Below, piece after piece: positions 3,520-20,367 of a DNA stretch of 20,707 bases. The position numbers and the translations under genes were made by a program. Within the stretch, counting starts at the first letter, position 1. Every line of letters starts with the position of its first letter. The stretch is from a virus. The notes beneath the pieces were generated by a model that ran no database searches, was not told where the DNA came from, and worked only from the letters and a program-made list of their open reading frames with translations. The stretch spans positions 1 to 20,707 of IMG/VR virus record IMGVR_UViG_3300005841_000090; one strand, written 5' to 3'.

Positions 3520-3522
3520 GGA

Positions 3523-4188: not shown

Positions 4189-4573
4189 ATTCGTTCCTCA
4201 ACAAGCCGTAAATCATCATGTCTTCATCGCCAAGCCCCTTTCTCAGCGTGCCTTCGTGCACAAATCCCAACTGTTTAGCCAGTTTCTGCGCTTTCGTATT
4301 ACTTGCGCTCGTCCTCACCGTGCAGCGGTTGCAGCGGGCGGTCTCAAACACGTACCAGAAAACGATTCTCAGAGACTCCCGCGTAATGCCTTTCTCCACC
4401 GCCACCGTAAGCTCGATATCAGCGCCATCCTTGTATGTCACATAACGGCTGAAACCCACCACCCATGCCACTTTTCCGTCAACTATTCTACCGATGAAGC
4501 GTGCGTCCTGCTGTAGCGTGATTCCGACCTTTTGCTCCAGCCATGATCGGAATCTCTCGTCCTCCAGAATCAC
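4172..4573 (-). CDS. GNAT-like N-acetyltransferase, 133 aa
   Basis: The GTG start overlaps the portal stop as GTGA. The C-terminal half has the GNAT fold signature: a strand-like region DIELTVAV, then a helix ending in CNRCTVRT, and the classic acetyl-CoA-binding helix and final strands NTKAQKLAKQLGFVHEGTLR with a C-terminal MMIYGLLRNEY. At 133 residues it is short but within the range of phage GNAT proteins. Known members transfer an acetyl group from acetyl-CoA to an amine. Related short acetyltransferases occur next to portal genes in other podoviruses, where the substrate is unknown. Its coupling to the portal gene suggests late expression. The fold assignment is fairly secure; the substrate (virion protein, host protein or small molecule) is not known. 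Confidence 0.75.
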   Translation of the reverse strand: MILEDERFRSWLEQKVGITLQQDARFIGRIVDGKVAWVVGFSRYVTYKDGADIELTVAVEKGITRESLRIVFWYVFETARCNRCTVRTSASNTKAQKLAKQLGFVHEGTLRKGLGDEDMMIYGLLRNEYGQYK

Positions 4574-6735: not shown

Positions 6736-8188
6736 GCAGTTCCTTCATGGTAATAGGGGCATCCCAGACCAGCGGTTTCTTGACGGGCAGTCTCGGAGCG
6801 TTCCACGTATGATCGATAAAGCGGCCGAGCAGCGAGCAAGTGTCTACCGCGTCATCATGCTTGCCGCTCGGGAAGCGCAGCAGCTGATCGATCACGCGCT
6901 CAGCCCAAAGTCCCTCGGCGTCCTGAGCAGCGCTTGTCCGCACCATTGATTGCGGGAAATAGACCTTCCCCACAGAGCACATGGCCTGGAAGCTTCGCGC
7001 ATTCGCCTCCTTGTTCGCCTGCCCATGCGGCAGCCATTCGCAAGCCACGTAAATGCGGCGTTCCTCCATAGACTTTCGCAAGAAAGGCTCAACCGCTCTC
7101 CGAATCGGTCCAGTCTCACCGATGAAGTAGTGCGGCGACCAGCGCTTTACCCGATCCAGCATCGCTGTTGTCCAGACATCCGCGCTCGCTTGGCTATGCC
7201 ACCAGTCCAGAGCGTAGATATTGCCCATCGTATCCACGCCCCACACAGCAAGCTCGGTATAGTCCCCGTCACCTTCCGTCACGGCGAAGTCACCGGACAT
7301 ATAGATGGTCATACTGTCGGGAGCCTGAGTGTAGTAGCGCATCCACTCGCGCTTGAAGAACGTACCCTGCTCGCTGGTCGGGGTCTGCTGGTAGAGGCTC
7401 AGCCAGTCACGTGGACCAATCGTTCCCTGGATGCTGTGAAGCTCGGACAGCGGATACCATTCGGGCCATAGGGCCTTTTCCTCGCCATCCTCTACCCGGA
7501 GTGCAGGGAAGCTAACTACTTCCCACTGCTCACCGCCTTCGCTCTGTGCCGCCAGGAGACGGCCTGCAAGGTCATCCTCGTGCCAGCGCGTGCAGATGAT
7601 CACGATAGCACCGCCGGGCATCAGGCGCGTGCGCAAGGTGCTTGTGTACCAGTGCCAGAGCGTATCCCGTAGCTTCTCGCTCTCGGCGTCCTGCCGGTTC
7701 TTCAGCGGGTCATCGATCAGAGCCAGATGAGCACCACGCCCAGTAATCGGACCACCAGCGCCCACGGCCACATAGATGCCGCCTTCCTCGGTGTGCCATC
7801 TGCCCTTTGCAGTCGAGTCAGCAGCGAGACGCGTGTTGAACAGGGCTTTGTAGGTCTCGTCCTGAATGATTCCCCGGACCTCGCGGCCGAAGTCCTCGGC
7901 GAAGTCGCTGGCGTAGGTCGCTGTGATGATCTGCTTGGTGGGATTGCGGCCGATGTACCACGCCGGGAAGCGACGGGAGGCAAGCTCAGACTTCGTGTGA
8001 CGGGGGGGCGCAAAGATCATCAGCCGACGACACTCACCTCTCTCCACGCGCTCCAGGGCGTCTGCGATGCGTTTGTGATGCTCAGCCGGGGCGAAGTCAG
8101 GCTTGGTGTATTGCGTGAACGCGATCAGCGACCGCCGAGCCTGCCTGCGGGCAAGCAGTTCCTCGGCGATGGCGGATTCATCGATCAT
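6719..8188 (-). CDS. Terminase large subunit (TerL): packaging ATPase and nuclease, 489 aa
   Basis: TerL cuts concatemeric phage DNA and pumps it into the procapsid with ATP. The N-terminal ATPase domain has a Walker A variant PPRHTKS (residues 61-67), a Walker B LALIDD (155-160) and a coupling motif ICTRWHEDDL (198-207). The C-terminal RNase H-like nuclease domain shows SGDFAVTEG with the metal-binding Asp at 300, an acidic residue in FIGETG (Glu358), and HDDAVD (444-449), which supplies the last acidic ligands. All key residues are present and the length is normal. The start overlaps the previous gene as ATGA, and the end overlaps the portal. The small-subunit candidate lies three genes upstream, with two small genes between. 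Confidence 0.96.
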   Translation of the reverse strand: MIDESAIAEELLARRQARRSLIAFTQYTKPDFAPAEHHKRIADALERVERGECRRLMIFAPPRHTKSELASRRFPAWYIGRNPTKQIITATYASDFAEDFGREVRGIIQDETYKALFNTRLAADSTAKGRWHTEEGGIYVAVGAGGPITGRGAHLALIDDPLKNRQDAESEKLRDTLWHWYTSTLRTRLMPGGAIVIICTRWHEDDLAGRLLAAQSEGGEQWEVVSFPALRVEDGEEKALWPEWYPLSELHSIQGTIGPRDWLSLYQQTPTSEQGTFFKREWMRYYTQAPDSMTIYMSGDFAVTEGDGDYTELAVWGVDTMGNIYALDWWHSQASADVWTTAMLDRVKRWSPHYFIGETGPIRRAVEPFLRKSMEERRIYVACEWLPHGQANKEANARSFQAMCSVGKVYFPQSMVRTSAAQDAEGLWAERVIDQLLRFPSGKHDDAVDTCSLLGRFIDHTWNAPRLPVKKPLVWDAPITMKELHEHAA

Positions 8189-8556
8189 CCAATGATGTCT
8201 CTAACCGGCATCGGCTGGTGGAAGTAGTCTCGGCACACGCCGCCGAATGCGAACGTCTTCCCGCATGTCGGGCACAGGGGCTTGAGGGTCTTGCTCTCCT
8301 TCCCGCGCATGGCCTTGGCGATCAGCATGCCGTAGGTCTGATCTGCATCCTGGGGGAAGTTCTGCTGGCTGACGAAGTTCACGACTAGCTCAAGCATCTT
8401 CACGCGCTCTTCCAGAGAAGTCGTATCGGCCTCTTCTCGCGTCACGCCAATGCCATGGTGGATCGTATTGTTCACGGATTCGACCAACTGAGGGTCAAAA
8501 ACGGTCTCTACGTGAAGCGGCGTTTCTTTAGACCCGTCGTTCTGCACAACACTCAT
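8185..8556 (-). CDS. Small zinc-ribbon-like protein upstream of TerL, 123 aa
   Basis: The chosen ATG has a good site (AGGGGAAAGG just upstream). A longer reading frame starting at 8655 would run into the previous gene and has no such site. The gene overlaps TerL as ATGA. The protein is mostly helical, with a charged middle (TSLEERVKMLELVVNF). Near the C-terminus it has CPTCGKTFAFGGVC, a CxxC and a further Cys that could bind zinc. I do not recognise the family. Its place between the small terminase candidate and TerL suggests a packaging accessory role, but that is only positional. It could also be an alternative DNA-recognition partner of TerL. Confidence 0.75.
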   Translation of the reverse strand: MSVVQNDGSKETPLHVETVFDPQLVESVNNTIHHGIGVTREEADTTSLEERVKMLELVVNFVSQQNFPQDADQTYGMLIAKAMRGKESKTLKPLCPTCGKTFAFGGVCRDYFHQPMPVRDIIG

Positions 8557-8618
8557 GCCCTTTCCCCTAAAAAGAGCCAGCCGGTCCCGAGCGGATTGCG
8601 GCTGGCGGAGTGGGTAAC

Positions 8619-8993
8619 TTATTCCATGCATTCCAGCTCGAATGCCACCGAGCACGTAGCAGCAGCGCCATTCGCCACACCCACGCGGATATAGATCGTC
8701 TGGGCCGTGAGATAGTCGGCGCTGGCTGCGATCGTGCGATCGTTGAACTTCGTGGCTGCCGTGAGGCCCGTTGCCGTGGCGGGGGTGACGATAGTCGTAC
8801 CGCCTGCTGCAGGAGCCGTATAGGCGCCGATCGTCGCGCTGGAGGCCGCAAGTGTCGTGCTGACATCGAACAGCGTCATGCGGCGGACGATATATTTGGC
8901 GAAGGGGACCGTTACGGGAGTATCGCCGACCGTATTCAGATCGACCAGATAGTTCACGGTCGTCGGGGCCGGGTGCTGATTGCGGAGAGACAT
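8619..8993 (-). CDS. Small Ala/Thr-rich beta-type protein, possible virion decoration, 124 aa
   Basis: The start has AAGGAAG at normal spacing and lies one base after the previous stop. The sequence is rich in Thr, Ala and Val with alternating short hydrophobic strands (for example TPVTVPFAKYIVRRMTLFDV and TIYIRVGVA). That suggests a small beta-sandwich, without membrane segments or catalytic motifs. Such proteins in late operons are often head decoration or fibre accessory proteins. I cannot assign a named family. A 62-base stretch separates its stop from the next gene's start. Confidence 0.75.
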   Translation of the reverse strand: MSLRNQHPAPTTVNYLVDLNTVGDTPVTVPFAKYIVRRMTLFDVSTTLAASSATIGAYTAPAAGGTTIVTPATATGLTAATKFNDRTIAASADYLTAQTIYIRVGVANGAAATCSVAFELECME

Positions 8994-8994
8994 A

Positions 8995-9303
8995 TCAGTG
9001 CTTCCTTTGTTCTGGGCGTTCGGCCGCTTTCTGTGCGAGCAGGGCCGTTAGCTCGTGATCAGTGTATTCGCGGACAGTCTTGTCAGTGACCGTGGCATCC
9101 ATCAGGACTTGCTGTACTGCCTTCCCGTCCAGGCGGTCTGCAATCTCACGCACGGCGGAGATATCGCCTTCCTCAGCCTGGGCAATCAGCTTGTCAGCGA
9201 TGCGACTCAGCTTGTCCGGGTCTTGGGTAAATTTGCGATGCAGCATCTCCGACCACATACGGTTCGGCTTGGCTGCGTATCGGTTGCCTTTTGCTGCTGC
9301 CAT
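8995..9303 (-). CDS. Putative terminase small subunit, 102 aa
   Basis: A small, basic, helical protein that begins MAAAKGNRYAAKPNRMWSEM. Its core is LADKL-type helices (LSRIADKLIAQAEEGDISAV then REIADRLDGKAVQQV). I recall this arrangement (basic 'GN.YA..N' start, 'IADKLI..A.EGD..A..EIADRLDGK') in short phage proteins encoded just upstream of TerL and annotated as small terminase subunits. The small subunit recognises the packaging site and delivers DNA to TerL. Length and position fit. It is separated from TerL by two genes, which is less usual. The upstream ribosome binding site is weak (AAAGAAAT). The function is inferred. Confidence 0.7.
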   Translation of the reverse strand: MAAAKGNRYAAKPNRMWSEMLHRKFTQDPDKLSRIADKLIAQAEEGDISAVREIADRLDGKAVQQVLMDATVTDKTVREYTDHELTALLAQKAAERPEQRKH

Positions 9304-9355
9304 GATTTCTTTGCGTATCGTTCTGTTACTTGTAACGTTTATGGTTGGGATGGAA

Positions 9356-9458
9356 GGCGTGAGGAGGACTCGAACCTCCGACCTGCATAACCGCCACGAT
9401 GGTCGCTCGAACGACTCCGTAACGGCCTAGCTGCTCTGCCAACTGAAGCTACCACGCC
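9356..9458 (-). tRNA. tRNA-like gene, isotype undetermined, non-standard middle
   Basis: Read on the minus strand, the 103-base element has a 7-bp acceptor stem (GGCGTGG with TCACGCC; one G-T pair). It also has a D arm (GCTT/GAGC around CAGTTGGCA) and a perfect 5-bp T arm (GGAGG/CCTCC) with the conserved loop TTCGAGT. Between the D and T arms are 53 bases instead of about 23 (A26 plus 52 more). I find no 5-bp stem with a 7-base loop and T33 there. The middle does contain small hairpins (GTCG/CGAC, GACC/GGTT). The 3' CCA is not encoded at the exact position. It could be a tRNA with an unusual long variable arm, a tRNA with an insertion, or a tRNA mimic. Its first base is the last base of the stop codon of the preceding gene. 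Confidence 0.55.
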
Positions 9459-10090
9459 TACTGCTGCTGTTTGTTACGGTTGCTGCCGAGGTTGCCATTG
9501 TTGCTGGCGCCAGGAGGGTTGACCCAGTACGTTCCGCCAAAGGCCGTATTCGCCCCGATGCTAGAGCCGCCAAGGTTGCTGCCGAGACTGCCGAATCCGT
9601 TGAACCCGCTATTGCTTGGCCCGCTGGCGTAATTCATCGCGCCACCGTTGGCGAACGTGCCGCCGGGGCCTGACTGCGGAGCGGGGCCGAGGAAATCTAG
9701 GAGTCCACCGGCATTCGGGCCTGAGAAGCTTTGCGGGCTGCGGCCGAAGAAATGGGACATGTTCAGGTTGCCGGTGTTTGCGGGGCTCCCCATATTACCC
9801 ATGAAGGCCTGGGCGAGGGATTGATTGCTGCCCCCACCGAACTGACCAAGTGGGCCGTTTAGGGGCTTATCGATCGATGCGTTACCAGCGCGATTGCCCT
9901 GATCAACCATGTTGCCGAAGTCGGTATTGGCCGCCCCGTTGAACTGATTCTGGTTGTAGCGATTGAACAGGCGGTTAGCAATGAGCCCACCGCCGGGGAC
10001 GAGGGCGCCAGCTCCTAGACCGAGCAGCGTCTGGAGCGGATGAGTGGTCATCGTGTTCCAGCGACTCTGTATGCGGTCCCCGATGCTCAT
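9458..10090 (-). CDS. Gly/Asn/Ser-rich low-complexity protein, putative virion protein, 210 aa
   Basis: An ATG start with AAGG eight bases upstream. The N-terminal 40 residues are helical with one weakly hydrophobic, Gly-rich stretch (LLGLGAGALVPGGGLIANRL). That could be a membrane-interacting helix but is short and contains Pro. From residue 45 to the end the protein is Gly/Asn/Ser/Gln/Phe-rich and disordered-looking, ending NKQQQ. The segment NTDFGNMVDQGN resembles QTDFGNLMNLLG in the Asn-rich gene at 2332-3519, which suggests a related role. There is no known family. The gene abuts the tRNA-like element, sharing one base. Confidence 0.65.
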   Translation of the reverse strand: MSIGDRIQSRWNTMTTHPLQTLLGLGAGALVPGGGLIANRLFNRYNQNQFNGAANTDFGNMVDQGNRAGNASIDKPLNGPLGQFGGGSNQSLAQAFMGNMGSPANTGNLNMSHFFGRSPQSFSGPNAGGLLDFLGPAPQSGPGGTFANGGAMNYASGPSNSGFNGFGSLGSNLGGSSIGANTAFGGTYWVNPPGASNNGNLGSNRNKQQQ

Positions 10091-10173
10091 CTTGTGGCCT
10101 TGTGAAGAGGTCGTCTAGCCGATAGCGTGGACGGATTGTAGCAATTTCCTGACACCAGCGTGGTAGCGGATCA

Positions 10174-10629
10174 CTATGCGACAAGTGAAGGGGTCGTGAT
10201 CAGCATGCCGATCGCCAGCACGTTGTTGCTCGTATAGCGCAGACCTATCACGGTCTTACTGGTCGTCCCCATGACCTGAATGACTCCGCTAGGAGTGCCG
10301 GAATAGATTTGCTGCGTAGTGCCATCCGAATTCACCAGGCTTACAGTGATCGGCCCATTCAGCGGATTCAGCGTGATGTTGCTAGAGAAGGTGAAAGGCT
10401 GATTGGGGTCTATCGGCTGCGTCAGCGGGCTTGTGATGGTTCCCGAGCCACCTAGAACCGTCATGACTCCAGCGGCGACCGAGAAGGCCGCATTGGTGAT
10501 TGTCCAGAGCAATGGCAGTGTGAGGCCAGGGTCTACCAAGCGCTGGAACTTCCCGAAGAACGCGTCGTAAAGCGTCTGGGCGTAACCAGTGACGTAATGG
10601 CTCTGATTGACGCCAGACGCGAGGCTCAT
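10174..10629 (-). CDS. Small beta-rich protein of unknown function, 151 aa
   Basis: The start was set at the ATG that overlaps the preceding stop as ATGA; a longer reading frame to 10674 begins inside the previous gene. The N-terminal third is aromatic and helical (QSHYVTGYAQTLYDAFFGKF). A short hydrophobic segment follows near residues 35-60. The rest is a beta-type region rich in Thr, Ser and Asn (TFSSNITLNPLNGPITVSLV). The last part alternates hydrophobic residues up to TTPSLVA. A virion or decoration role fits the late position, but there is no recognisable domain. An 83-base stretch without a visible gene lies between this gene and the next. Confidence 0.7.
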   Translation of the reverse strand: MSLASGVNQSHYVTGYAQTLYDAFFGKFQRLVDPGLTLPLLWTITNAAFSVAAGVMTVLGGSGTITSPLTQPIDPNQPFTFSSNITLNPLNGPITVSLVNSDGTTQQIYSGTPSGVIQVMGTTSKTVIGLRYTSNNVLAIGMLITTPSLVA

Positions 10630-10940
10630 GCGGCGAGGACTCGGGGTGAGCCACCTATGACATACACACCACAAGCGGCCGCCGTAGCGCTCTTGGTAGC
10701 CGCATAGACGGGGCCGCCGATGAGCTGTACTGCGGGGATGCTAGCCGTGAGCGTGATGATGTTCCCTGCCGTATCCGTCACCTGCTTGAAGATGCTGCCG
10801 ATCTGAATCCAGAGAGGAGCCGTTTCTGTCATAGCTAGGTTGTCAGCGCCGACAATTATGAAAGATGAGCCGGCACTATTGAACGGCTGTGGCGTGTTCT
10901 GGGCAGCCGTGGCGGGAGGGATTAGCGTTGACTGAGCCAT
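10626..10940 (-). CDS. Small beta-rich protein, possible decoration or fibre accessory, 104 aa
   Basis: The ATG at 10940 lies one base after the preceding stop; the extra N-terminal residues of the longest frame would overlap that gene. The protein alternates short strands with Ala/Thr/Gly (SSFIIVGADNLAMTETAPLW, ITLTASIPAVQLIGGPVYAA) and ends GVYVIGGSPRVLAA. No signal peptide, membrane span or catalytic motif is evident. It is coupled to the following gene by an ATGA overlap. Function unknown; together with the 151-residue neighbour it could form a small virion surface module. Confidence 0.7.
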   Translation of the reverse strand: MAQSTLIPPATAAQNTPQPFNSAGSSFIIVGADNLAMTETAPLWIQIGSIFKQVTDTAGNIITLTASIPAVQLIGGPVYAATKSATAAACGVYVIGGSPRVLAA

Positions 10941-10941
10941 G

Positions 10942-11187
10942 TTACGGAGTCGGCTGCGCCAGCGCATTCACCTGCGCCGTATTCTGGTTGATGCGGTCCA
11001 CCACCGGCTGAAGATCGGTCGCGCCCGGAAGTGCTGCGATGCGAGCCGTCAGGTCCGTGATGGCTTGCGCTTGAGTGTCGAGTGCTGCGTTGACTTCTGC
11101 GATACCAGCCATGAGCATGACTCCTATGAGGGTGACGAGGATGATTAGTGCGAGTGCGGCCAGCGCGATGATGGTTTCAGCGCCCAT
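10942..11187 (-). CDS. Single-span membrane protein with coiled-coil tail, 81 aa
   Basis: The start was set at MGAETIIALAAL, with GGGAG upstream; the longer frame would read through Rz1. A strongly hydrophobic helix spans about residues 5-28 (ALAALALIILVTLIGVMLMA). A helical, heptad-like region follows (about 30-75, including DTQAQAITDLTARIAALPG). The topology is probably a short N-terminus outside or in the membrane and a cytoplasmic or periplasmic coil. It overlaps the end of Rz1 by 11 bases, so it belongs to the lysis operon. It may be a small holin or antiholin or a spanin-associated membrane protein; none is proven. Confidence 0.7.
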   Translation of the reverse strand: MGAETIIALAALALIILVTLIGVMLMAGIAEVNAALDTQAQAITDLTARIAALPGATDLQPVVDRINQNTAQVNALAQPTP

Positions 11188-11437
11188 GGACCCACTCCCG
11201 GAGGCTATCGTACCGCGATTTGCATTCTGCGTAAGCCTGTTGAGACGCGATTCGGTTGGCCAGCAGATCGGCCGCATAGTCTTGTGACAGGCTTGGCAGA
11301 TTCGGCAGCGTCGGGGGCAAATCTGGCATGCCAGGAAGCTCGCGCGGAGCCGGACAGACAGGCGGCAGAGTGATCGGCGCGACAGTCGGAACCTGCGCGC
11401 AGCCAGACAACAGGAGCGCCAGCAAATAGCGGCTCAC
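11177..11437 (-). CDS. Rz1: Rz1-like outer-membrane lipoprotein (o-spanin), 86 aa
   Basis: The GTG start overlaps the Rz stop as GTGA and has GGAGAGGG upstream. A longer ATG at 11485 lacks a ribosome site. The N-terminus is a very short signal with a lipobox (LLALLLSGC, Cys at residue 12), followed by a Pro-rich mature part (PTVAPITLPPVCPAPRELPG and more). Such a Pro-rich lipoprotein directly behind Rz is diagnostic of an o-spanin. Known Rz1 proteins are lipidated in the outer membrane and bind Rz across the periplasm to fuse the membranes at the end of lysis. The C-terminal 35 residues form a helix (SLSQDYAADLLANRIASQQA), longer than in lambda Rz1. The short leader before Cys is unusual. Confidence 0.85.
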   Translation of the reverse strand: MSRYLLALLLSGCAQVPTVAPITLPPVCPAPRELPGMPDLPPTLPNLPSLSQDYAADLLANRIASQQAYAECKSRYDSLREWVHGR

Positions 11438-11793
11438 GACCCCTCTCCGTTCCAGAGTCTCACATAGTCCTGAGACAGTTCGCATTTGGCTGGCGGCTGA
11501 ACCTTGGCGACCTGTAGCTTGATCCCCGAGAACTTGTCAGCGATAGCCTGTAACTGGTCGCTCGCTGCCTTCTGGCGGTCTTGGTCGGCTGCTCGTGCTG
11601 CGGAATCGGCCAGGGACTGCGACTGCGCGCGCTGTTGCCATTCCTGGAGAGATGCCGCTAGGGCAGTAGCCTCATGGGCTGCGCACGCATCCTGCGCTCT
11701 CCTGTGGCCTTTAGCGTAGCCATAGCCAGTAGCGCCAGCAAGGATCGCAAGCAGGGCGGTTCCGGCAATCGCGTACGTTTGCAGGCTAAGCAT
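11434..11793 (-). CDS. Rz: Rz-like inner-membrane spanin (i-spanin), 119 aa
   Basis: One N-terminal membrane helix (about residues 6-27, TYAIAGTALLAILAGATGYG) is followed by a long Ala/Gln/Arg-rich helical periplasmic domain (about 30-95, for example LQEWQQRAQSQSLADSAARA). It ends in a polar tail (CELSQDYVRLWNGEGS). This layout, its length, and the coupled Pro-rich lipoprotein behind it identify an i-spanin. It anchors in the inner membrane and pairs with Rz1 to disrupt the outer membrane. The ATG start overlaps the previous gene by 8 bases. It lies in a long lysis operon with the endolysin-like gene and a holin candidate upstream. Confidence 0.87.
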   Translation of the reverse strand: MLSLQTYAIAGTALLAILAGATGYGYAKGHRRAQDACAAHEATALAASLQEWQQRAQSQSLADSAARAADQDRQKAASDQLQAIADKFSGIKLQVAKVQPPAKCELSQDYVRLWNGEGS

Positions 11794-12103
11794 CAGGCTC
11801 CATCCCGTTCGTAGCCCGCAACAGGGACTCTAGTTCGCTCCGGTAGTGCCGGGAGGTGTCCGGCCTCAGCGACCAGACGCCTCTTTTGTTCTCGAAGAAC
11901 AGCGATCCCAGCCTCAAAGCCTTGTCGGTAATATCCCGATTGGCTGTCACGTAGCCCTTGTGATACTGCAGCACGGCAAGCATCACGTCCTGCAGCTCGG
12001 TAAACATCACCAAACGTTCCGCCGTCCTCTCGCTCACCGGTAGCGCGGATGTCGCTTTGGCTCGATCGAGCAGCGACTGGGCGATTTTCAGGATATCCGG
12101 CAC
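11786..12103 (-). CDS. Small helical protein of unknown function in lysis operon, 105 aa
   Basis: A GTG start with only a weak ribosome site. A competing frame of the same size (11793-12110) looks like a shadow, being rich in Arg, Gly and Ala without pattern. The chosen product is an alpha-helical soluble protein (LKIAQSLLDRAKAT, ERTAERLVMFTELQDVMLAV) with a polar, Arg-rich C-terminal region. No membrane segment or motif is recognised. It overlaps the start of Rz by 8 bases. Its place between a tiny membrane gene and Rz suggests expression with lysis, perhaps as a regulator. That is only positional. Confidence 0.6.
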   Translation of the reverse strand: MPDILKIAQSLLDRAKATSALPVSERTAERLVMFTELQDVMLAVLQYHKGYVTANRDITDKALRLGSLFFENKRGVWSLRPDTSRHYRSELESLLRATNGMEPDA

Positions 12104-12112
12104 GGAGCACGG

Positions 12113-12226
12113 TTACGGCTTCTCAGGCAGCGAAATGCCTTTCTTGGCGAAGAATCGCTTGATAGCGGCGTGGAATACAGCGCCAGCTACAGCGCCAACG
12201 AGGAAGACGATGATGTAGTCGATCAT
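12113..12226 (-). CDS. Tiny single-span membrane protein, 37 aa
   Basis: The ATG overlaps the stop of the holin candidate as ATGA, which strongly supports translation. The peptide starts MIDYIIVFLVGAVAGAVFHA, a hydrophobic helix of about 20 residues, and ends with a basic tail (IKRFFAKKGISLPEKP). An N-terminal span followed by a basic cytoplasmic tail is the classic positive-inside pattern. Phages often carry such short membrane peptides in lysis cassettes as holins, pinholins or antiholins. The identity is undecided. Confidence 0.65.
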   Translation of the reverse strand: MIDYIIVFLVGAVAGAVFHAAIKRFFAKKGISLPEKP

Positions 12227-12552
12227 GGTTTGTACGCCTTGGGGATGAGGTCAGGGTATCTCGTGTAGAACCAGCGGGTTCCCATCTGGTGGAGCGTGGG
12301 GCCAGCGAGGCCAGTCGTGATGGCGAGGCAGAAGCCTACTGCCGTGGCATCCAGCCAGAAGGTCATGCAGGACGATACGCCGAAGCACGTGAGACGGGTG
12401 ATCCTGTCTGCGGCGTAGGCATCCATCGTGCGTGGGAGCATGTGGGCCAGAGTTTCGGCGAGGAAGATGCCAGCGATCAGCGCGAGGACGGATGCGGCAC
12501 CATGTGCGTTAGCGAGGATCGTGCGTATCTGGACGGCGAGGAAGTCCAGCAT
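12223..12552 (-). CDS. Multi-span membrane protein, holin candidate, 109 aa
   Basis: The ATG at 12552 has GGAG seven bases upstream. A GTG three bases further upstream (12555) is possible and would give a GTGA overlap with the previous gene. Two strongly hydrophobic regions are visible: one near residues 18-38 (AASVLALIAGIFLAETLAHM), another near 53-85 (CFGVSSCMTFWLDATAVGFC then LAITTGLAGPTL) that may be two spans. The C-terminus is polar and aromatic (TRWFYTRYPDLIPKAYKP). Holins are small multi-span proteins that make holes in the inner membrane, and they usually sit beside the endolysin, as here. The sequence family is not recognised, so holin is an inference from topology and context. Confidence 0.6.
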   Translation of the reverse strand: MLDFLAVQIRTILANAHGAASVLALIAGIFLAETLAHMLPRTMDAYAADRITRLTCFGVSSCMTFWLDATAVGFCLAITTGLAGPTLHQMGTRWFYTRYPDLIPKAYKP

Positions 12553-12959
12553 CACCGCACTCCAGCCATGCTAGCGCCATTCTCCAGCATCACGTTGTCG
12601 TACGGGCACGAGCCGTTCTCATGGATCGTCATGGCCCGCAGAATCTTGGCCATGTTCTCCATATGGCTGAGGTCGTATAGCTCGTCCTTGTTCACCCCGC
12701 AGCCTTTCGCGACTGAGGCAACGTACGCAGCGGTATCGTTCTCGCTCTCGGGCGCCCAACGGTTCACGATGGCCTGGATTGACCAGCAGCCATAGCGTGA
12801 CTGGTAGTTAAGCAGGAGCTTCGCAGCGGCGCGCAGGCCGTATTCCGGAGACGAGAACACGCAGAATGACGGGTCAGTCTGTTCGTCGGCCAACCCCTGC
12901 CAATTGTCGCCGGTACGGATGTTCAATGGGTTGTTGTTGCGCAAACCTCTGGAGGCCAT
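12552..12959 (-). CDS. Endolysin-like or virion-lysin protein (structural protein P5-like family), 135 aa
   Basis: The start was set at MASRGLRNNNPLNIR: the ATG overlaps the preceding stop as TGATG and has GGAG upstream. The segment RGLRNNNPLNIR followed by WQGLADEQTDPSFCVFSSPE then YGLRAAAKLLLNYQSRYG, and IVNRWAPESENDTAAYV, matches a conserved phage family. I recall this family as 'structural protein P5', which is thought to have peptidoglycan-degrading activity. There is no signal peptide, so it needs a holin to reach the cell wall, consistent with the neighbours. The length is typical. The catalytic residues are not certain to me; the conserved Glu/Asp and His positions would need comparison with homologues. 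Muramidase or transglycosylase activity is inferred. Confidence 0.7.
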   Translation of the reverse strand: MASRGLRNNNPLNIRTGDNWQGLADEQTDPSFCVFSSPEYGLRAAAKLLLNYQSRYGCWSIQAIVNRWAPESENDTAAYVASVAKGCGVNKDELYDLSHMENMAKILRAMTIHENGSCPYDNVMLENGASMAGVR

Positions 12960-13057
12960 CAGTCCCGCTCCGACTTGCGCGAGAACAGCGCGCACAGCGT
13001 CAGCTCGGCGAGGCATGCCGCGATGATTCCCAAGGTCCACCAGGTTTCGGTTGTCAT
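12959..13057 (-). CDS. Tiny single-span membrane protein, 32 aa
   Basis: The ATG overlaps the HNH endonuclease stop as ATGA and its own stop overlaps the lysin start as TGATG, so the frame is closed on both sides. The peptide starts MTTETWWTLGIIAACLAELT, a hydrophobic helix with two Trp at its start, and ends with a basic tail (SRKSERD). It has the pattern of a single-span inner-membrane peptide and may be a small holin-like protein. Because it is so short, the call rests mostly on the two overlaps. Confidence 0.55.
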   Translation of the reverse strand: MTTETWWTLGIIAACLAELTLCALFSRKSERD

Positions 13058-13500
13058 CTCACATGGCCCCAAAAACGTCCACTAGCAATGTTGCTGATGG
13101 ATGTGCGCGATACCCCGAACTCAATCGCAATTGCCCTATGCGATACGCCAGATTCTATCTTTCTCCTAATCGACAAGACTTTCTCTGGCGAGAGCACATT
13201 AGCAGAATTCCCATGCCTACGACGACCCTTCCGATCCATGTCGCACATGTTCTCTTTCGGAGAACCGAGGAACAAATGCGATGGGTTGATGCAGGATGGT
13301 GTATCGCACCTGTGGCACACATGGAAATTCCCAGCCTTCCCTTTGTGCACAGCATAAGAGCTTCGGTGGGCTAATACCTTCTTCCCACGCCAACGAAGTA
13401 TTCCATACCCTTTCGCCAGGCCACCAAGCCATAGCCAGCAACCAGATTCTGGAACTGGCATGCTTAGGCGCTCTATCTTTTCGCCAAGAGACTCGGGCAT
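13054..13500 (-). CDS. HNH homing endonuclease with C-terminal helix-turn-helix, 148 aa
   Basis: The start at MPES has AAGGGG seven bases upstream. An earlier ATG at 13515 would add five residues and is coupled to a 17-codon frame. Residues 62-76 read CHRCDTPSCINPSHL, the Cys/His-rich HNH core found in phage homing endonucleases, followed by LFLGSPKENMCDMDRKGRRR. An N-terminal part has GCWLWLGGLAKGYG, typical of this family. The C-terminal part, SHRAIAIEFGVSRTSISNIA (about 120-139), is a helix-turn-helix for DNA binding. Homing endonucleases cut cognate sites lacking the gene and spread by repair. It sits inside the lysis operon, overlapping the next gene as ATGA. The site it recognises is unknown. 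Confidence 0.88.
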   Translation of the reverse strand: MPESLGEKIERLSMPVPESGCWLWLGGLAKGYGILRWRGKKVLAHRSSYAVHKGKAGNFHVCHRCDTPSCINPSHLFLGSPKENMCDMDRKGRRRHGNSANVLSPEKVLSIRRKIESGVSHRAIAIEFGVSRTSISNIASGRFWGHVR

Positions 13501-13511
13501 AGAATTCCCCT

Positions 13512-13565
13512 TCATCTGTTAGATGCGCCCCCGGACTCGCTCACGGGGACGACTTTCGGCTCCAT
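13512..13565 (-). CDS. Possible 17-codon ORF between lysis genes and HNH gene
   Basis: A 17-residue frame, MEPKVVPVSESGGASNR, starts one base after the stop of the helical gene at 13567. Its stop overlaps an in-frame ATG at 13515 of the HNH gene as ATGA. This is the usual coupling pattern of the operon. It may be a translated leader, the stump of a gene interrupted by the HNH insertion, or chance. A hairpin (CCCCG/CGGGG) lies within it. Confidence 0.3.
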   Translation of the reverse strand: MEPKVVPVSESGGASNR

Positions 13566-13566
13566 C

Positions 13567-13905
13567 TTAGGGGGAGACTCGGCCGACAGTTGATCTTACC
13601 TTCTTTTCCGCACGATTGGCAAAGTAGATGCGGTCCAGATAGCGAACGCGTTTCTTGCGTTCTTCCAGGGGTAGTACGGTGCGGGCGTTGCCCGCTTTTG
13701 GCCTCGGCGTATGCTCCTCCGTCAGATCGAGCACGTAAATCGCGCAGGCTGCGTAGCGATAGGCTTGTGCGCGCGACATACCGAACTTGTCACGCATGCG
13801 CTGACATAGCTCAGCCAGGGCGATGGATTCCTTGGGTAGCTCGGTCATCCAGAGCACGATCCGCATGGATAGTTCCATCGGTTCGTAGTTGTGGCCCTTA
13901 ATCAT
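13567..13905 (-). CDS. Small helical protein with helix-turn-helix-like segment, 112 aa
   Basis: The start at MIKGHNYEP has GGAG five bases upstream and overlaps the previous stop as ATGA. The longer frame to 14031 has an Arg-rich lead that looks like non-coding translation. The middle contains IALAELCQRMRDKFGMSRAQ followed by AYRYAACAIYVL, which reads as a helix-turn-helix (AELCQRMRDKFGMSRAQAYR). The C-terminus is basic (LEERKKRVRYLDRIYFANRA). A DNA-binding role is plausible. No known family is recognised; the target is unknown. It is upstream of the HNH gene and lysis genes in the same operon, so it could regulate late expression, but that is speculation. Confidence 0.65.
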   Translation of the reverse strand: MIKGHNYEPMELSMRIVLWMTELPKESIALAELCQRMRDKFGMSRAQAYRYAACAIYVLDLTEEHTPRPKAGNARTVLPLEERKKRVRYLDRIYFANRAEKKVRSTVGRVSP

Positions 13906-14069
13906 GTCAGCTCCGCGAGGTATTTGCGGGCGGCGTCCACGACGAGCTGCCATTTCTTGCCTTCCTCCAGCATGTGATCGAACTGCAGCCGTTCGTCTCT
14001 GGCGCGCTGCTCGTCCAAGTCTTGCTGACACGATACCAGCGCCTTCTCTAGCTCTTGGGTGTAGGTCAT
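13902..14069 (-). CDS. Small coiled-coil protein, 55 aa
   Basis: ATGA overlaps at both ends (with the genes at 14066 and 13905) support the frame. The protein is a continuous charged helix (LEKALVSCQQDLDEQRARDE then RLQFDHMLEEGKKWQLVVDA) with heptad character and no other motif. It looks like a small coiled-coil phage protein of unknown function, probably soluble. Confidence 0.6.
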   Translation of the reverse strand: MTYTQELEKALVSCQQDLDEQRARDERLQFDHMLEEGKKWQLVVDAARKYLAELT

Positions 14070-14356
14070 GGCGTGGTCTCCTGCTCCAGAAATAGGTTCT
14101 CTTCAGGCCGATTCAGAACAGCATCCAACGCAGCCTCCATCCGCGCCCGCTCGCACAGTCCGCTGCGCACAGGAGTGCCCTCCGCATGGTCGTACCAAAT
14201 CATGGCGCGCTGCACCAGAGCAGGATCGACCAAGCTTTTACGAACAGTTTCGCGAGGTGTTGCAATTCTTGAACTGCCCGCGCAGCCATGAAAAGGCGCA
14301 CACATATCAGGCGTCTGGCAGCGAGTCATCGTGCGTTGGCAAATAAGGTCGCTCAT
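14066..14356 (-). CDS. Cys-rich N-terminus small protein, 96 aa
   Basis: An ATG with a strong AGGGG site upstream, overlapping the next gene as ATGA. The N-terminus has spaced cysteines and a Pro: Cys6, Cys13, Cys19 and Cys25 in SDLICQRTMTRCQTPDMCAP continuing with FHGCAG. These could bind zinc or form a small knuckle. The rest is helical and polar (DPALVQRAMIWYDHAEGTPV, ARMEAALDAVLNRPEE). I have seen similar small Cys-rich phage proteins but know of no function for them. It is the gene just downstream of the second HNH gene. Confidence 0.65.
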   Translation of the reverse strand: MSDLICQRTMTRCQTPDMCAPFHGCAGSSRIATPRETVRKSLVDPALVQRAMIWYDHAEGTPVRSGLCERARMEAALDAVLNRPEENLFLEQETTP

Positions 14357-14380
14357 CTCTATTCCCCTCTAGGTAGGTAG

Positions 14381-14932
14381 TTAACGCCAATCCGTGTTGT
14401 CCCAAGCGCCCTTCCCGTAGTTGCAGTCCTCGCATAGCACTTGCAGGTTGTCGAGGCTCAGCGACAGGTCCGGTCGATGGTAACGCGGCTGGATATGGTC
14501 AACGTGTATCCGTAGTCCGTCCTTTCCTGATGCACCGCAGCATTGGCAGCGGCCGTCTGTGTTCTTCAGCGCGAGATAGCGTAGTTCTCGCCATTCGCGG
14601 CTGATGTAGAAGTCTTCATCACGCTTGTACGAAGGATGACGTTCGAGTTTGGCCTGGAACTGCGATTTAGCCTCGATCTTCGCCATTACCGCGCGACGTT
14701 CGGCCCGTTTCTGCTTTCGGATAGCTTTCTTCTCTTCCTTCCTAGGCATCCTCGGGAGTTTCCCGTAGCTCTCGAATTCTTCCCGTGTCCGTTCAGAAAT
14801 CTCGCGTAGGCAAGCTTCCTTGATCCATCCTTTCTGCGGCGGCCAACACACGCCAATCAGCCGAAGCTGAGACATAGGCCATCCGCCTCTAGAAGACTTG
14901 TTACTTAATATCCACTCTCTAGTAATCTGCAT
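14381..14932 (-). CDS. HNH endonuclease, 183 aa
   Basis: The C-terminal HNH domain is complete. It has SREWRELRYLALKNTDGRCQ followed by CCGAS (Cys129/131/132), then HVDHIQPR (His143, Asp145, His146), LSLDNLQVLCEDC (Cys167/170) and NYGKG. These supply the zinc knuckle and the metal-binding His/Asn. The N-terminal domain has GGWPMSQLRLIGVCWPPQKG, a pattern I recall in phage HNH proteins, followed by a long basic helical linker (KEEKKAIRKQKRAERRAVMA). Phage HNH enzymes of this size nick DNA and are either homing enzymes or packaging cofactors. Unlike many packaging HNH genes, this one is far from terminase. The upstream AGGAA sits almost against the start; an internal Met20 is possible, but the conserved GGW block before it favours Met1. 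Confidence 0.88.
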   Translation of the reverse strand: MQITREWILSNKSSRGGWPMSQLRLIGVCWPPQKGWIKEACLREISERTREEFESYGKLPRMPRKEEKKAIRKQKRAERRAVMAKIEAKSQFQAKLERHPSYKRDEDFYISREWRELRYLALKNTDGRCQCCGASGKDGLRIHVDHIQPRYHRPDLSLSLDNLQVLCEDCNYGKGAWDNTDWR

Positions 14933-15319
14933 TTCCTGAGAACCTTGGTGGGAAGACAGCCAAGAGCATCCCCGCTGTTGCGAAGAACTCTTGGCAGGAG
15001 AACCTTGTATGGGTCCCGACTAGCCAGCCATCACCTTATCCGGTCCGCGCCCTGTGATGACTACGGGAACGCCTCGCTGTCTCAGGACCTATCCCAACTG
15101 TACGAGCTTAGAAACCCAACACGCAGCCGTTACGCCAACCGAGAGGGTAGCGTCAGCGGCAGATCAGGACGGATGGTATGGGTGTTGCCGAGAAGTTGAG
15201 GGAAGGATGGTGTACACTTCCTCTCGCATTCGGTGCCGGAATCACCAATGCCACACGTCAGGAGCTGGTTACTCGCTGACGGAATCGATCTTACGCCCTG
15301 CCGTGATCGTCTGCAACAA
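14933..15319. other. Gap without a recognised gene, with repeats and hairpins
   Basis: This 387-base stretch lies between the HNH gene and the terminator of the replication gene. Reading frames are present on both strands but look like chance. The stretch holds a direct repeat GAGAACCTTG (14938-14947 and 14998-15007) flanking an inverted repeat GCCAAGAG/CTCTTGGC (14959-14966 and 14988-14995). The right half (from about 15195) holds a run of hairpins listed separately. I do not see a convincing -35/-10 pair on either strand. It could hold the late promoter of the leftward operon or a structured RNA. Confidence 0.5.
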
Positions 15320-15354
15320 GCCCCCGAGGACTGAAAATCCCGGGGGCCGCTTTT
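15199..15354 (+). ncRNA. Candidate structured RNA ending in a hairpin terminator
   Basis: On the plus strand four hairpins follow in a row. They are GAG(G)GAAG/CTTCCTC near 15199-15223; GGTG/CACC at 15232-15246; CGTCAG-GAG/CTC-G-CTGACG at 15256-15281 with loop CTGGTTA; and the GC-rich stem at 15320-15347 followed by CGCTTTT. No gene lies upstream on this strand, so a terminator with trailing Ts would make sense for a short plus-strand RNA, perhaps antisense to the leftward operon. No promoter is clearly seen, and the hairpins may instead act on the minus strand. This is speculative. Confidence 0.25.
15320..15354. terminator. Strong hairpin terminator, probably bidirectional
   Basis: The stem GCCCCCG (15320-15326) pairs with CGGGGGC (15341-15347); GGA/TCC extends it around the loop CTGAAAA. 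On the plus strand it is followed by CGCTTTT; on the minus strand by TTGTTGC. It starts seven bases past the stop of the leftward DnaT-like gene, so it most simply ends that operon, though the T tract is better on the plus strand. Confidence 0.6.
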
Positions 15355-16633: not shown

Positions 16634-16812
16634 GCGAACCCCTCTTTCGGTTGTGGCCTGCGTACTCAAGCACATTTCCTGCGTGGCTGCAACAGCCGCC
16701 ATCTAATAACTTATCGCCATGAAGATTCCTGCAGAAACCTCTTGCAACTTGCGGCGGATGCCGTCAAGATATGCCCACGGTCACTCACGGCCGACTGCTT
16801 AGGGAGCAGATC
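16634..16812. promoter_or_regulatory. Divergent control region between leftward and rightward operons
   Basis: The first leftward and first rightward genes point away from this 179-base stretch, so at least two promoters must lie here. A/T-rich patches occur at 16704-16716 (TAATAACTTATC) and near 16768-16772 (GATAT). The -35/-10 matches I can find are weak. Two dyads could be operators: GGCTG-CAA-CAGCC at 16685-16697, and the imperfect CTTGcGGC-ggat-GCCgtCAAG at 16748-16768. The rightward gene has a good ribosome site (AGGGAG) just upstream of its ATG. Confidence 0.55.
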
Positions 16813-17124
16813 ATGAACAATCAAACGAACGCGCAGCACACGCCGACGCCGAGGATGGCAATCCTTGTAGGAGACGAGCGCGTCTATGCGCTCCGCGAGG
16901 ATCGGACGGAAGCGCCGCCGGTATTCGTGATGCCGATTGCGCGCAAGGACGAGATGGAAACCATCGTCCGAGCCTGCAATGCGCATGACGATCTGGTCGC
17001 GGCGCTGCGCGAACTGATCGACGACGCGGATGCCAGCGGCGTCACCGCGCATTTCAAAGGCCGCGGCTTCGACGAGTCGATCGAAAAAGCCCGCGCCGCG
17101 CTCGCGAAGGCTGGTGCGGCATGA
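16813..17124 (+). CDS. Small helical protein, first gene of the rightward operon, 103 aa
   Basis: The start was set at MNNQTNAQH, with AGGGAG upstream. An earlier ATG at 16771 lies in the control region. The product has a strand-like start (MAILVGDERVYALRED) and a central helix DEMETIVRACNAHDDLVAAL followed by RELIDDADASG. That resembles a common segment ('..N...DL..AL..L') of small phage early proteins. Polar, soluble, function unknown. It overlaps the next gene as ATGA. Confidence 0.7.
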   Translation: MNNQTNAQHTPTPRMAILVGDERVYALREDRTEAPPVFVMPIARKDEMETIVRACNAHDDLVAALRELIDDADASGVTAHFKGRGFDESIEKARAALAKAGAA

Positions 17125-17360
17125 ACGTCCACGACCACGGTTCCGCGCTGGCGGAAGCTGCGCTGAAGATGGAACGCCATCTGGACATGCTGCAATCCAA
17201 CGATGGGATGATTGACCAGCTGCTCCGCAGTACCGATCTGTCCCAAACGCTAATGGAACTGTTCGCGTGGGCGGTGGATGCTGAGGGGCGGACTTCGCGC
17301 AATGACACGATCCTGAAGCTGGCTGACACCCTGCACCGGCAGGCGCGGAGGGGTGTATGA
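17121..17360 (+). CDS. Small helical protein, 79 aa
   Basis: ATGA overlaps at both ends support this frame. The protein is helical (SALAEAALKMERHLDMLQSN, LSQTLMELFAWAVDAEGRTS) with no motif that I recognise. Soluble; unknown function. The spacing within the operon suggests translation coupled to its neighbours. Confidence 0.65.
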   Translation: MNVHDHGSALAEAALKMERHLDMLQSNDGMIDQLLRSTDLSQTLMELFAWAVDAEGRTSRNDTILKLADTLHRQARRGV

Positions 17361-17788
17361 CCCTCGATCTCGACGCGCTGCGGGGGCATACGGCGGGCGA
17401 TTGGCAGCGGTCCGACACGACCGTCTACGCACTCATGCACGACGGCTGGCGGCGCGGAGAGGAAACGTTCCGCAATCGTGTTTGGCTGAACGTCTCTTTC
17501 GATCGCGAAGTGCCGCAGGAAGAACGCGAAGCCACGGTCGCCGCGATTCAGCACGCCCCCCAACTCCTCTCCGAACTCCTCGCCTATCGTGCAAGAGATG
17601 CGGCGGTGGCGGAGTTGGTGGCTGCTCTTGATGTCCTGGCGAATATTCCGATTGAGGATTTCTCGCTGGAGAAGAAACCGGCCACTCCTTTGATGTCGTG
17701 GAATGACCATCAGTTGCGAGTCGAACACGTGCTAGCTGCTCGTGCAGCCCTCGCCGCCTTCCGCCAAGGAGCCGCCCGTGAAGATTAG
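17357..17788 (+). CDS. Small early protein of unknown function, 143 aa
   Basis: The ATG overlaps the previous stop and is preceded by GGAGGGG, a strong site. The middle has the helix EEREATVAAIQHAPQLLSEL, close to the 'AR.IA.AP.LL..L' motif found in many small early phage proteins. Here it is longer, with RDAAVAELVAALDVLANIPI and a C-terminal Ala-rich helix. No enzymatic motif. The next gene's GTG overlaps its end by 11 bases. Confidence 0.7.
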   Translation: MTLDLDALRGHTAGDWQRSDTTVYALMHDGWRRGEETFRNRVWLNVSFDREVPQEEREATVAAIQHAPQLLSELLAYRARDAAVAELVAALDVLANIPIEDFSLEKKPATPLMSWNDHQLRVEHVLAARAALAAFRQGAARED

Positions 17789-17951
17789 CCGCGAGCTGTA
17801 CAACCAAGCACGGATGATCTGCAACGCCTACCTGACCGGGGAAGAGATACAGGAAAACTCCGGGTCAGGCTGGGAAGAACCTGAAACGGTTTCGGGCGAG
17901 CAGATGATCGCGCTGAATTCCTCCCACTACCAGTACAGGGTGAAGCCGTGA
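17778..17951 (+). CDS. Small acidic protein, 57 aa
   Basis: The GTG start has AAGGAG six bases upstream, better than any earlier ATG in the frame, and it overlaps the previous gene. The product opens with VKISRELYNQARMICNAYLT and continues acidic (GEEIQENSGSGWEEPETVSG) with a short tail. No motif is recognised. Its stop overlaps a following GTG as GTGA. Confidence 0.6.
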   Translation: MKISRELYNQARMICNAYLTGEEIQENSGSGWEEPETVSGEQMIALNSSHYQYRVKP

Positions 17952-18148
17952 GTGCGCATTTCTGATGGAAATGTGGCCGCCCGCTGTCACGCGTTTATGG
18001 CCACTTCGTGTATCGCGTACACGTTGTGGATGGGAATCAAGTCCGCGTTCATCTGAAGTGCAAGGAGAATCTGGCTAAGCCAGAACCGAAATCTTCGCAA
18101 TCGCGGACCAAGAGTGACGTGCGGAAGTATCTCGGAGACAAGCCATGA
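17948..18148 (+). pseudogene. Zinc-finger-like small gene with an in-frame TGA at codon 6
   Basis: The frame opens with a GTG overlapping the previous stop (GTGA) and closes with a TGA overlapping the next ATG (ATGA). Both ends therefore follow the operon's coupling pattern over exactly 67 codons. Codon 6 is TGA (17963-17965). The codons after it read WKCGRPLSRVYGHFVYRVHV, then HLKC near codons 35-38, then a basic tail. If the TGA were Cys, the protein would have Cys6-x2-Cys9 and His35-x2-Cys38, a plausible zinc finger. A mutation or sequencing error (TGC or TGT to TGA), suppression or readthrough could all explain this. There is no good downstream start with a ribosome site; a GTG at 18008 exists without one. 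Confidence 0.6.
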
Positions 18149-18345
18149 TCGAGCGCCGGTCTACACCCACTGTCCCGCGCGAGCGCACGCTGTTGCCGTC
18201 TGCGGCCAAGTCCGACCATATGCTAGGTTTCGTGTGCTACGGCCTCAGCATGCCGTGCCCGGGCGACGCCAGCAAGGAATTCAAGGCCGGATATGCAGAG
18301 CACCGCTCGTCCGTGATCAGCAAGTTACTGGGAGAAGAAGAATGA
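18145..18345 (+). CDS. Small protein of unknown function, 66 aa
   Basis: Overlaps the preceding and following genes as ATGA. The product has a polar N-terminus (MIERRSTPTVPRERTLLPSA), two cysteines in GFVCYGLSMPCPGD, and a helical end (EFKAGYAEHRSSVISKLLGE). No recognisable family. Soluble and probably a small early protein. Confidence 0.6.
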   Translation: MIERRSTPTVPRERTLLPSAAKSDHMLGFVCYGLSMPCPGDASKEFKAGYAEHRSSVISKLLGEEE

Positions 18346-18557
18346 GCACATCAAGTCGTAGGTTGAGCCAGAGAAGCAAGTCTTCGCGTCCGTCACAAAC
18401 GCCTGGAAAGCAGAAGTCCGAGGCGTGCCAGAAAACCGACCTTAAAGAGTGGGGTCGTCAGGCCAAGCCGTGGGCGTTCGGCTCTGGCGATCATGGCAAG
18501 TACGAGGTTTATTGCAAGCTGACGGACTCCTACAACAACAGCAGCCGGTCGGGGTGA
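18342..18557 (+). CDS. Small basic protein, 71 aa
   Basis: The start MSTSSRRLSQRSKSSRPSQT overlaps the previous gene as ATGA. The longer frame from 18114 would start inside two other genes and is ignored. The N-terminus is Ser/Arg/Lys-rich and probably disordered. The C-terminal part (WGRQAKPWAFGSGDHGKYEV) has aromatic and Gly residues. Unknown function; the basic start suggests nucleic-acid contact. Confidence 0.55.
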   Translation: MSTSSRRLSQRSKSSRPSQTPGKQKSEACQKTDLKEWGRQAKPWAFGSGDHGKYEVYCKLTDSYNNSSRSG

Positions 18558-18560
18558 CTC

Positions 18561-18767
18561 TTGAAAGACGCACAGCTCAAGAAAGTCCTCCGCGTGATCG
18601 AATCCGGACGATTCGTCTCCCAGCGCCGCAGCGCACACCTGTGCGGCATGTCTCCGAGAACCGTTCTCCGTGTGCTGAACGAGGCCAGGGCTAACGGTCT
18701 CGTGTTGGAGAAGGTGCAGACGTTGCGTGTGAAGGAATACGGGCCGTATGGGAGGGGAAGGAAATGA
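18561..18767 (+). CDS. Small helix-turn-helix DNA-binding protein, 68 aa
   Basis: A TTG start with GGGG five bases upstream, three bases after the previous stop. The protein is a short winged-helix or helix-turn-helix domain: QLKKVLRVIESGRFVSQRRS, then the recognition-like helix CGMSPRTVLRVLNEARANGL and a basic tail (KEYGPYGRGRK). It is about the size of a phage regulator or Cro-like protein. A regulatory role for the early operon is inferred. It overlaps the next gene as ATGA. Confidence 0.65.
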   Translation: MKDAQLKKVLRVIESGRFVSQRRSAHLCGMSPRTVLRVLNEARANGLVLEKVQTLRVKEYGPYGRGRK

Positions 18768-18928
18768 ACCGGGTAGAGTGCTTGCTTTTCGAGAATGAAC
18801 AGGAACGCCGCGAGTACGAACAATGGCTCGACCGGCTTGAGGATGGGCAACAGATCGCTTACGCCAAGGAGCAGGCAGCAATCGCAAACAGTCCAGAACA
18901 GGACGATGAACCCATAGACATGGGCTAA
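18764..18928 (+). CDS. Small acidic helical protein, 54 aa
   Basis: The ATG overlaps the previous stop (ATGA) and GGAGGGG lies upstream. The product is a charged helix (MNRVECLLFENEQERREYEQ, WLDRLEDGQQIAYAKEQAAI) with an acidic end (QDDEPIDMG). No recognised family. A 34-base space follows before the SSB-like gene. Confidence 0.6.
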   Translation: MNRVECLLFENEQERREYEQWLDRLEDGQQIAYAKEQAAIANSPEQDDEPIDMG

Positions 18929-18962
18929 CCCTTACGCCAGATACGGCACAGGAGAAAACGAC

Positions 18963-19610
18963 GTGGCACGATATTCAGCAACAGGCGGTTCCGATTTCAC
19001 CCCAGTCCCCGCAGGCGCACACGTGGCGGTCTGCACGATGGTCGCCGACATCGGCATCCAGCCGAGCCAGTTTTACGAACCCAAGCGTAAGGTCGTGTTC
19101 CGGTTCGAGCTGCCGAACGAACGAACGGAGTACACGGACAAGGATGGCAACAAGCGTTCCGGCCCGATGGTCGTCTACGACACGCTCACGGCCAGCATGA
19201 ATGGCAAGGCCAATCTCCGTGCGATGCTGGAAGGCTGGCGCGGCCGGAAGTTCACGGACGCCGAGGCGGGGGATTTCGACACCAGGAGCGTCCTTGGAAA
19301 GGCGTGCATGCTTTCCATCGTGCATAACGAGAAGGGCGAGAAGACGTACGCCAACATCGCCGCTGTCATGCCGCTGCCGAAAGGTACCAATGCCCCGGAG
19401 CCGGAGAACGAACCGCTGTACTACGACGAGGAAGACGTAAAGTCCTACGACAAGCTGCCGGAGTGGGTGCGGAAGAAGATCAGCGAGCAGGTTGCCGCGC
19501 CGACGAAGGATTCCGTGGACGACCATCTGGAGCAGGAAGCGGCTTCGCGTGGAGCATTCCACGACGATCCGATCCCATTTGCTCCACTGACCAAGCGCCA
19601 CTGGGTCTGA
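18963..19610 (+). CDS. Single-stranded DNA-binding-like protein (recombination module), 215 aa
   Basis: The GTG start has AGGAG eight bases upstream. The protein starts with a short N-terminal tail and beta-type core (AHVAVCTMVADIGIQPSQFY, EPKRKVVFRFELPNERTEYT). Next comes GKANLRAMLEGWRGRKFTDA, then CMLSIVHNEKGEKTYANIAA. The C-terminus is acidic (EQEAASRGAFHDDPIPF), as in many SSB proteins that bind partners through an acidic tail. I recall this layout in phage proteins encoded next to exonuclease and annotated as SSB-like, OB-fold proteins. The role in replication or recombination is inferred from the fold pattern and the neighbouring exonuclease and NinB. Confidence 0.65.
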   Translation: MARYSATGGSDFTPVPAGAHVAVCTMVADIGIQPSQFYEPKRKVVFRFELPNERTEYTDKDGNKRSGPMVVYDTLTASMNGKANLRAMLEGWRGRKFTDAEAGDFDTRSVLGKACMLSIVHNEKGEKTYANIAAVMPLPKGTNAPEPENEPLYYDEEDVKSYDKLPEWVRKKISEQVAAPTKDSVDDHLEQEAASRGAFHDDPIPFAPLTKRHWV

Positions 19611-19611
19611 C

Positions 19612-20367
19612 GTGGGTCACTGGTACAGTCGCAGCGGGAAAGCGTGCCACACCATCCGCAAGGGTGTTGTGGTGCGCGATACCACCCTCCGTGACGCTCG
19701 GGCACTGAATCTGGTGCCCAGCGTTTCCGAGGTTCTGTCCATCATCGCCAAGCCGGGCCTGGAGCGCTGGAAGGAAGAACAGGTTCTCATGGCCTCTCAG
19801 ACGCTGCCTAAGGTTGACGGAGAGGATGAGGCTACCTACCTAGCTCGTATACGCTCCGACAGCCGCAGACAAGCGCAGGAGGCGGCTAACGAGGGAACGA
19901 GGATACATGCATCGGTCGAAAAGTGGTTCACAGGCGGAAGCGTCCCTGCGGAGCACTGGTTACACGTGGAGGCGACACGGGATGCACTCGCCCAACTTTT
20001 CCCGAATGTTCAGGACTGGGTTTCGGAGAAGTCCTTTGCCCATCCTCTTGGGTTCGGCGGCTGCTGCGATATGCATAGTCCGAGTACGGGAATCGTCGTG
20101 GACTTCAAGACCACGGACAAAAAGTCGGGATCGGACAAGCGGCTGCACTACGACCAGAATTACCAGCTGGCAGCGTACAAAGCGGGACTATTCCAAAGGG
20201 ATGGAGGTGGTGACATGCCCTGCGCCAACATCTTCATCAGCCGTACGGAGCCGGGGACCGTGTTCACACACGTGTGGACACCGGAGGAAATTTCGCAAGG
20301 CTGGCGCGTGTTTTATGCCGCTCTCGCGCTCTGGAAAGCCGTGAAAGGCTACTCGGGGGAATGGTGA
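19612..20367 (+). CDS. PD-(D/E)XK exonuclease (RecB/Cas4-like), 251 aa
   Basis: The GTG start lies one base after the previous stop. The PD-(D/E)XK nuclease signature is clear: an N-terminal helix with GTRIHASVEKWF (about 95-106), then SEKSF (139-143), GFGGCCD (147-153; Asp153), and VVDFKTTDKK (162-171) with Asp164 and Lys166. YDQNYQLAAY (180-189) supplies the Q motif. These residues bind metal and cut DNA. In phage, this enzyme resects double-stranded DNA ends 5' to 3' for single-strand annealing recombination. The length is typical. It is next to the SSB-like gene and NinB, which together form a recombination module. No annealase (Beta, Erf or RecT) is visible here. Confidence 0.85.
   Translation: MGHWYSRSGKACHTIRKGVVVRDTTLRDARALNLVPSVSEVLSIIAKPGLERWKEEQVLMASQTLPKVDGEDEATYLARIRSDSRRQAQEAANEGTRIHASVEKWFTGGSVPAEHWLHVEATRDALAQLFPNVQDWVSEKSFAHPLGFGGCCDMHSPSTGIVVDFKTTDKKSGSDKRLHYDQNYQLAAYKAGLFQRDGGGDMPCANIFISRTEPGTVFTHVWTPEEISQGWRVFYAALALWKAVKGYSGEW

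Follow-up and report, generated by a model that had tools for sequence, protein, structure and literature searches.

The frame at 17948-18148 of IMGVR_UViG_3300005841_000090, a contig of an uncultured phage that was analysed over its whole length of 20,707 bases (the window), is best explained as a small and otherwise intact phage early gene, probably for a zinc-knuckle protein, that carries a nonsense codon at its sixth position in the sequenced genotype, an explanation that we hold at somewhat better than even confidence. Ribosomes initiating at the GTG would halt after the five residues VSAHF and the full protein is probably not made, because the in-frame starts further downstream all lack a ribosome-binding site, while the next gene (start 18145) would stay translatable through its own Shine-Dalgarno sequence. 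Codon 6 would ancestrally have encoded Cys, and the change would amount to a loss of the gene. The TGA is one base change away from either Cys codon, which together with the openness of the remaining frame suggests a recent event. The original prediction had ranked a point mutation or a sequencing error as the simplest explanation and recoding as less likely, and this order is upheld: the TGA is an ordinary stop in this phage, and neither an RNA signal nor a tRNA signal for its decoding was found.

The genes of the minus strand span approximately 1.2 to 16.7 kb and include the terminase gene; the long gene at 4570-6735 adjoins it and is by this position the putative portal gene. The interrupted frame belongs to an early operon on the plus strand, in which the genes downstream of 18145 (starts 18342, 18561, 18764, 18963, and 19612) are likewise connected by 4-base junctions or short gaps (Table 1). 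Two early genes of the plus strand, 16771-17124 and 17357-17788, weakly match the same family, phrog_1273 (E 0.0045 and E 0.7, respectively), which suggests that they may be distant paralogues within one operon. Moreover, a gap of approximately 420 bases separates minus-strand genes at 14933-15353, which is unusual for such a compact contig, and six-frame translation of this gap revealed no convincing gene.

Table 1. Coordinates of the interrupted gene, its signals, and the surrounding early operon in the window.
Feature	Position	Strand	Remarks
Early operon	16771..20367	+	gene starts 16771, 17121, 17357, 17778, 17948, 18145, 18342, 18561, 18764, 18963, 19612
Upstream coupled small gene	17778..17951	+	GTG start; its TGA stop overlaps the GTG of the interrupted gene
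Shine-Dalgarno-like CAGGG	17937..17941	+	6 nt ahead of the GTG start; by inspection
Interrupted small gene	17948..18148	+	66 codons counting the in-frame TGA; GTG start
In-frame TGA, codon 6	17963..17965	+	next base T
Stem-loop after the TGA	17973..18004	+	7-bp lower stem, 3-bp upper stem, 6-nt apical loop UGUCAC
Downstream coupled small gene	18145..18345	+	own strong Shine-Dalgarno sequence GGAGA; ATGA overlap with the stop of the interrupted gene
HTH-like gene	start 18561	+	member of the early operon
ssDNA-binding-like gene	start 18963	+	resembles phage ssDNA-binding proteins
Exonuclease-like gene	start 19612	+	resembles phage exonucleases

The frame translates as VSAHF*WKCGRPLSRVYGHFVYRVHVVDGNQVRVHLKCKENLAKPEPKSSQSRTKSDVRKYLGDKP*, so that the TGA proposed for codon 6 is seen directly, and 60 open codons with the look of a zinc knuckle (CGRP...HLKC) lie behind it. 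Both junctions that had been described for its ends are found: the upstream stop and the GTG share GTGA, and the frame's own stop and the start of the next gene share ATGA. Such exact junctions in a tight operon tip the balance towards a real gene. The codon-usage score of the frame is the best of all six frames in the interval; at -0.08 it is lower than the scores of confident genes, which range from 0.05 to 0.47. Taken together, the fit into a slot of the coupled operon and the best-of-six codon usage argue that the frame is probably a gene. We rejected reinitiation at the TGATG, from ATG 17965 into a +2 frame of 37 codons: this start lacks a Shine-Dalgarno sequence, and among the three forward frames the codon score of this one is the worst.

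Judged by motif spacing alone, the product would probably be a zinc-knuckle protein with a CxxC/HxxC arrangement if codon 6 were Cys. The proposed fit to a zinc finger is plausible with regard to this spacing and does not extend to family assignment: with Cys placed at codon 6, PF24184 (Phage_zn_bind_5) and DUF6011 (PF19474) are matched at 12.8-12.9 bits, below their curated cut-offs of 26.6-27 bits, and once codon 6 is masked, not even a weak match to a zinc-binding family is left. The matches to zinc families thus depend on the inserted Cys, and the masked search returned a single sub-threshold match, to a nuclease model that looks unrelated. When the Cys form was modelled with AlphaFold from its sequence alone, residues 20-38 formed a hairpin, in a model of low confidence (pLDDT 58). 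A more ordinary zinc-knuckle-like motif, CPTCGKTFAFGGVCRDYFH, is contained in the product of another gene of the same phage, 8185-8655 on the minus strand.

Relatives of the gene were searched with the sequence following the TGA, with the sequence carrying Cys at codon 6, and with degenerate motifs, and no real match was found in viral contigs, phages, related phages, plasmids, or a species-wide genome collection. The 1,029 genomes of three families around the Luteibacter, Lysobacteraceae, and Ramlibacter loci contained no homologue either; three weak matches among them were checked and judged to be chance. The one match to a degenerate motif, L013, is on the antisense strand within a terminase-like gene. 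A survey of the motif F-x-W-K-C-G-R-P in genomes and viral contigs returned mostly frames that are open by chance and do not code. The clearest of its matches to proteins, L078 and L112, occur in long frames that have a PknG-like rubredoxin knuckle, with Cys in the x position; they are too few to decide on the identity of codon 6. That no sequence shows codon 6 ever to have been Cys, or the protein to be under selection, counts against the explanation by a nonsense change. The same virus is represented by another contig (L002; IMGVR_UViG_3300026088_000098), which matches the window at 50-15267, i.e., over 15,218 bases, with zero substitutions and with a single indel 7 bases from its own end, and it ends 2.7 kb short of the interrupted gene. 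Before position 50 of the window the far end of L002 no longer agrees with it; one of the contigs may be a chimera or may end at a variable junction near this position.

That the frame as drawn does not encode one protein, with the region being a spacer or the real gene starting past the TGA, and with a coincidental CxxC/HxxC look, is unlikely, even though it is the most credible of the alternatives. Openness by itself is weak evidence, because after dinucleotide shuffling of the interval, 8.8% of the sequences still have 60 open codons leading up to the next ATGA junction. The motif is also not rare: a TGA-x-x-Cys occurs at 34 of the 611 TGAs in the window, and three frames, including the one studied here, have an [HC]xxC further downstream in addition; the two others are unannotated and lie opposite the putative portal gene. 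The dearth of family matches once codon 6 is masked points in the same direction. These observations are set against the exact 4-base junctions on both sides, the Shine-Dalgarno-like sequence ahead of the GTG, the leading codon score, and the in-frame GTGs at 18008 and 18026, which both lack a Shine-Dalgarno sequence; moreover, a spacer of approximately 190 bases would be atypical of this operon. Next in probability, and unlikely as well, is an error of sequencing or assembly, in which case the true genome has a sense codon at codon 6 and the gene is intact. Just one wrong base would be needed, and the position is covered by a single contig of an uncultured virus; a search with the early-operon genes 18963, 17357, and 19612 as queries did not find a second contig covering the locus. 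However, the agreement of L002 with the window implies a low rate of consensus errors if the reads of the two contigs are independent. On the same condition, a real mutation is favoured over an error, because this agreement makes substitutions by the assembly look rare.

Readings in which the TGA is decoded have far lower probability, and neither readthrough nor insertion of selenocysteine has positive support. A general reassignment of TGA to sense is excluded since TGA is the commonest terminator, ending 14 of the 25 window genes scored in the correct frame. Stop readthrough is known in some phages, and the openness of the frame past the TGA would fit with low-level or programmed readthrough, or with opal suppression by a host tRNA, yielding some full-length protein; we consider this very improbable. 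TGA also ends the interrupted gene itself and its upstream neighbour, the TGAT context of codon 6 is identical to that of the gene's own terminal stop and thus also serves as a working terminator, no tRNA gene and hence no suppressor tRNA was found within the window, and bulk suppression would lengthen most genes of the phage. The least probable reading, which we regard as barely credible, is an early-operon UxxC/HxxC selenoprotein in which selenocysteine is the first CxxC ligand of the zinc knuckle, decoded by host machinery (SelB) on a SECIS variant with a short stem. UxxC motifs occur in known selenoproteins, and the inverted repeat described at 17973-17978 and 17999-18004 is indeed present. 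The model for bacterial SECIS elements comprises an apical loop of 3-9 nt, an upper stem of 4-16 bp, a G in the first two loop positions, a distance of 16-37 nt from UGA to loop, and a minimum free energy of <= -7.5 kcal/mol (PMC13188914). The hairpin after codon 6 agrees with this model in loop size, the G (second loop position), the spacing of 19 nt, and an energy of approximately -15 kcal/mol; however, its upper stem has 3 bp, and it passes only when a stem of this length is allowed. Of all TGA triplets in the window, 22% passed the strict and 36% the relaxed form of the model, as determined with our own implementation on minimum-free-energy folds rather than with the bSECISearch program. 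Since the hairpin also folds within chance (z = -1.2; 24 of 200 shuffles fold equally well or better) and a search of Rfam at E<=10 gave no match, it provides no evidence for selenocysteine, and the suggestion that it hints at a bacterial SECIS element is not borne out. The motif furthermore suggests a structural zinc site instead of a redox centre, and no pair of Sec- and Cys-containing homologues was found. In the Sargasso Sea study, an ORF was considered only if it had two or more Cys homologues, and single-sequence clusters counted as mere candidates because of possible errors in sequencing (PMC1088965).

As it stands, the finding matters little, given that small phage accessory genes can break and that a consensus error can be present in a single metagenomic contig. 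Retention of the TGA in relatives would make it matter, as a pointer to recoding in an early gene of a phage. The null rate of approximately 22% of TGAs, obtained for one GC-rich phage contig with this implementation of the model, calls for caution in similar claims.

Compared with known systems, the putative product resembles the small phage zinc-binding proteins of PF24184 and PF19474 in being short and in having a CxxCG.P knuckle with an HxxC further on, and it differs in that its score is sub-threshold and is reached only with Cys at codon 6. With bacterial selenoproteins that carry a bSECIS element it shares the in-frame TGA at the place of a would-be Cys and a downstream stem-loop at suitable spacing, whereas the upper stem is too short, the stem is within chance, no Cys homologues were found, and no redox family is involved. 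With small phage genes interrupted by nonsense codons, the gene shares one premature stop in an otherwise open and operon-embedded small frame, and among the features tested the only difference is that this stop falls where a Cys would complete the CxxC.
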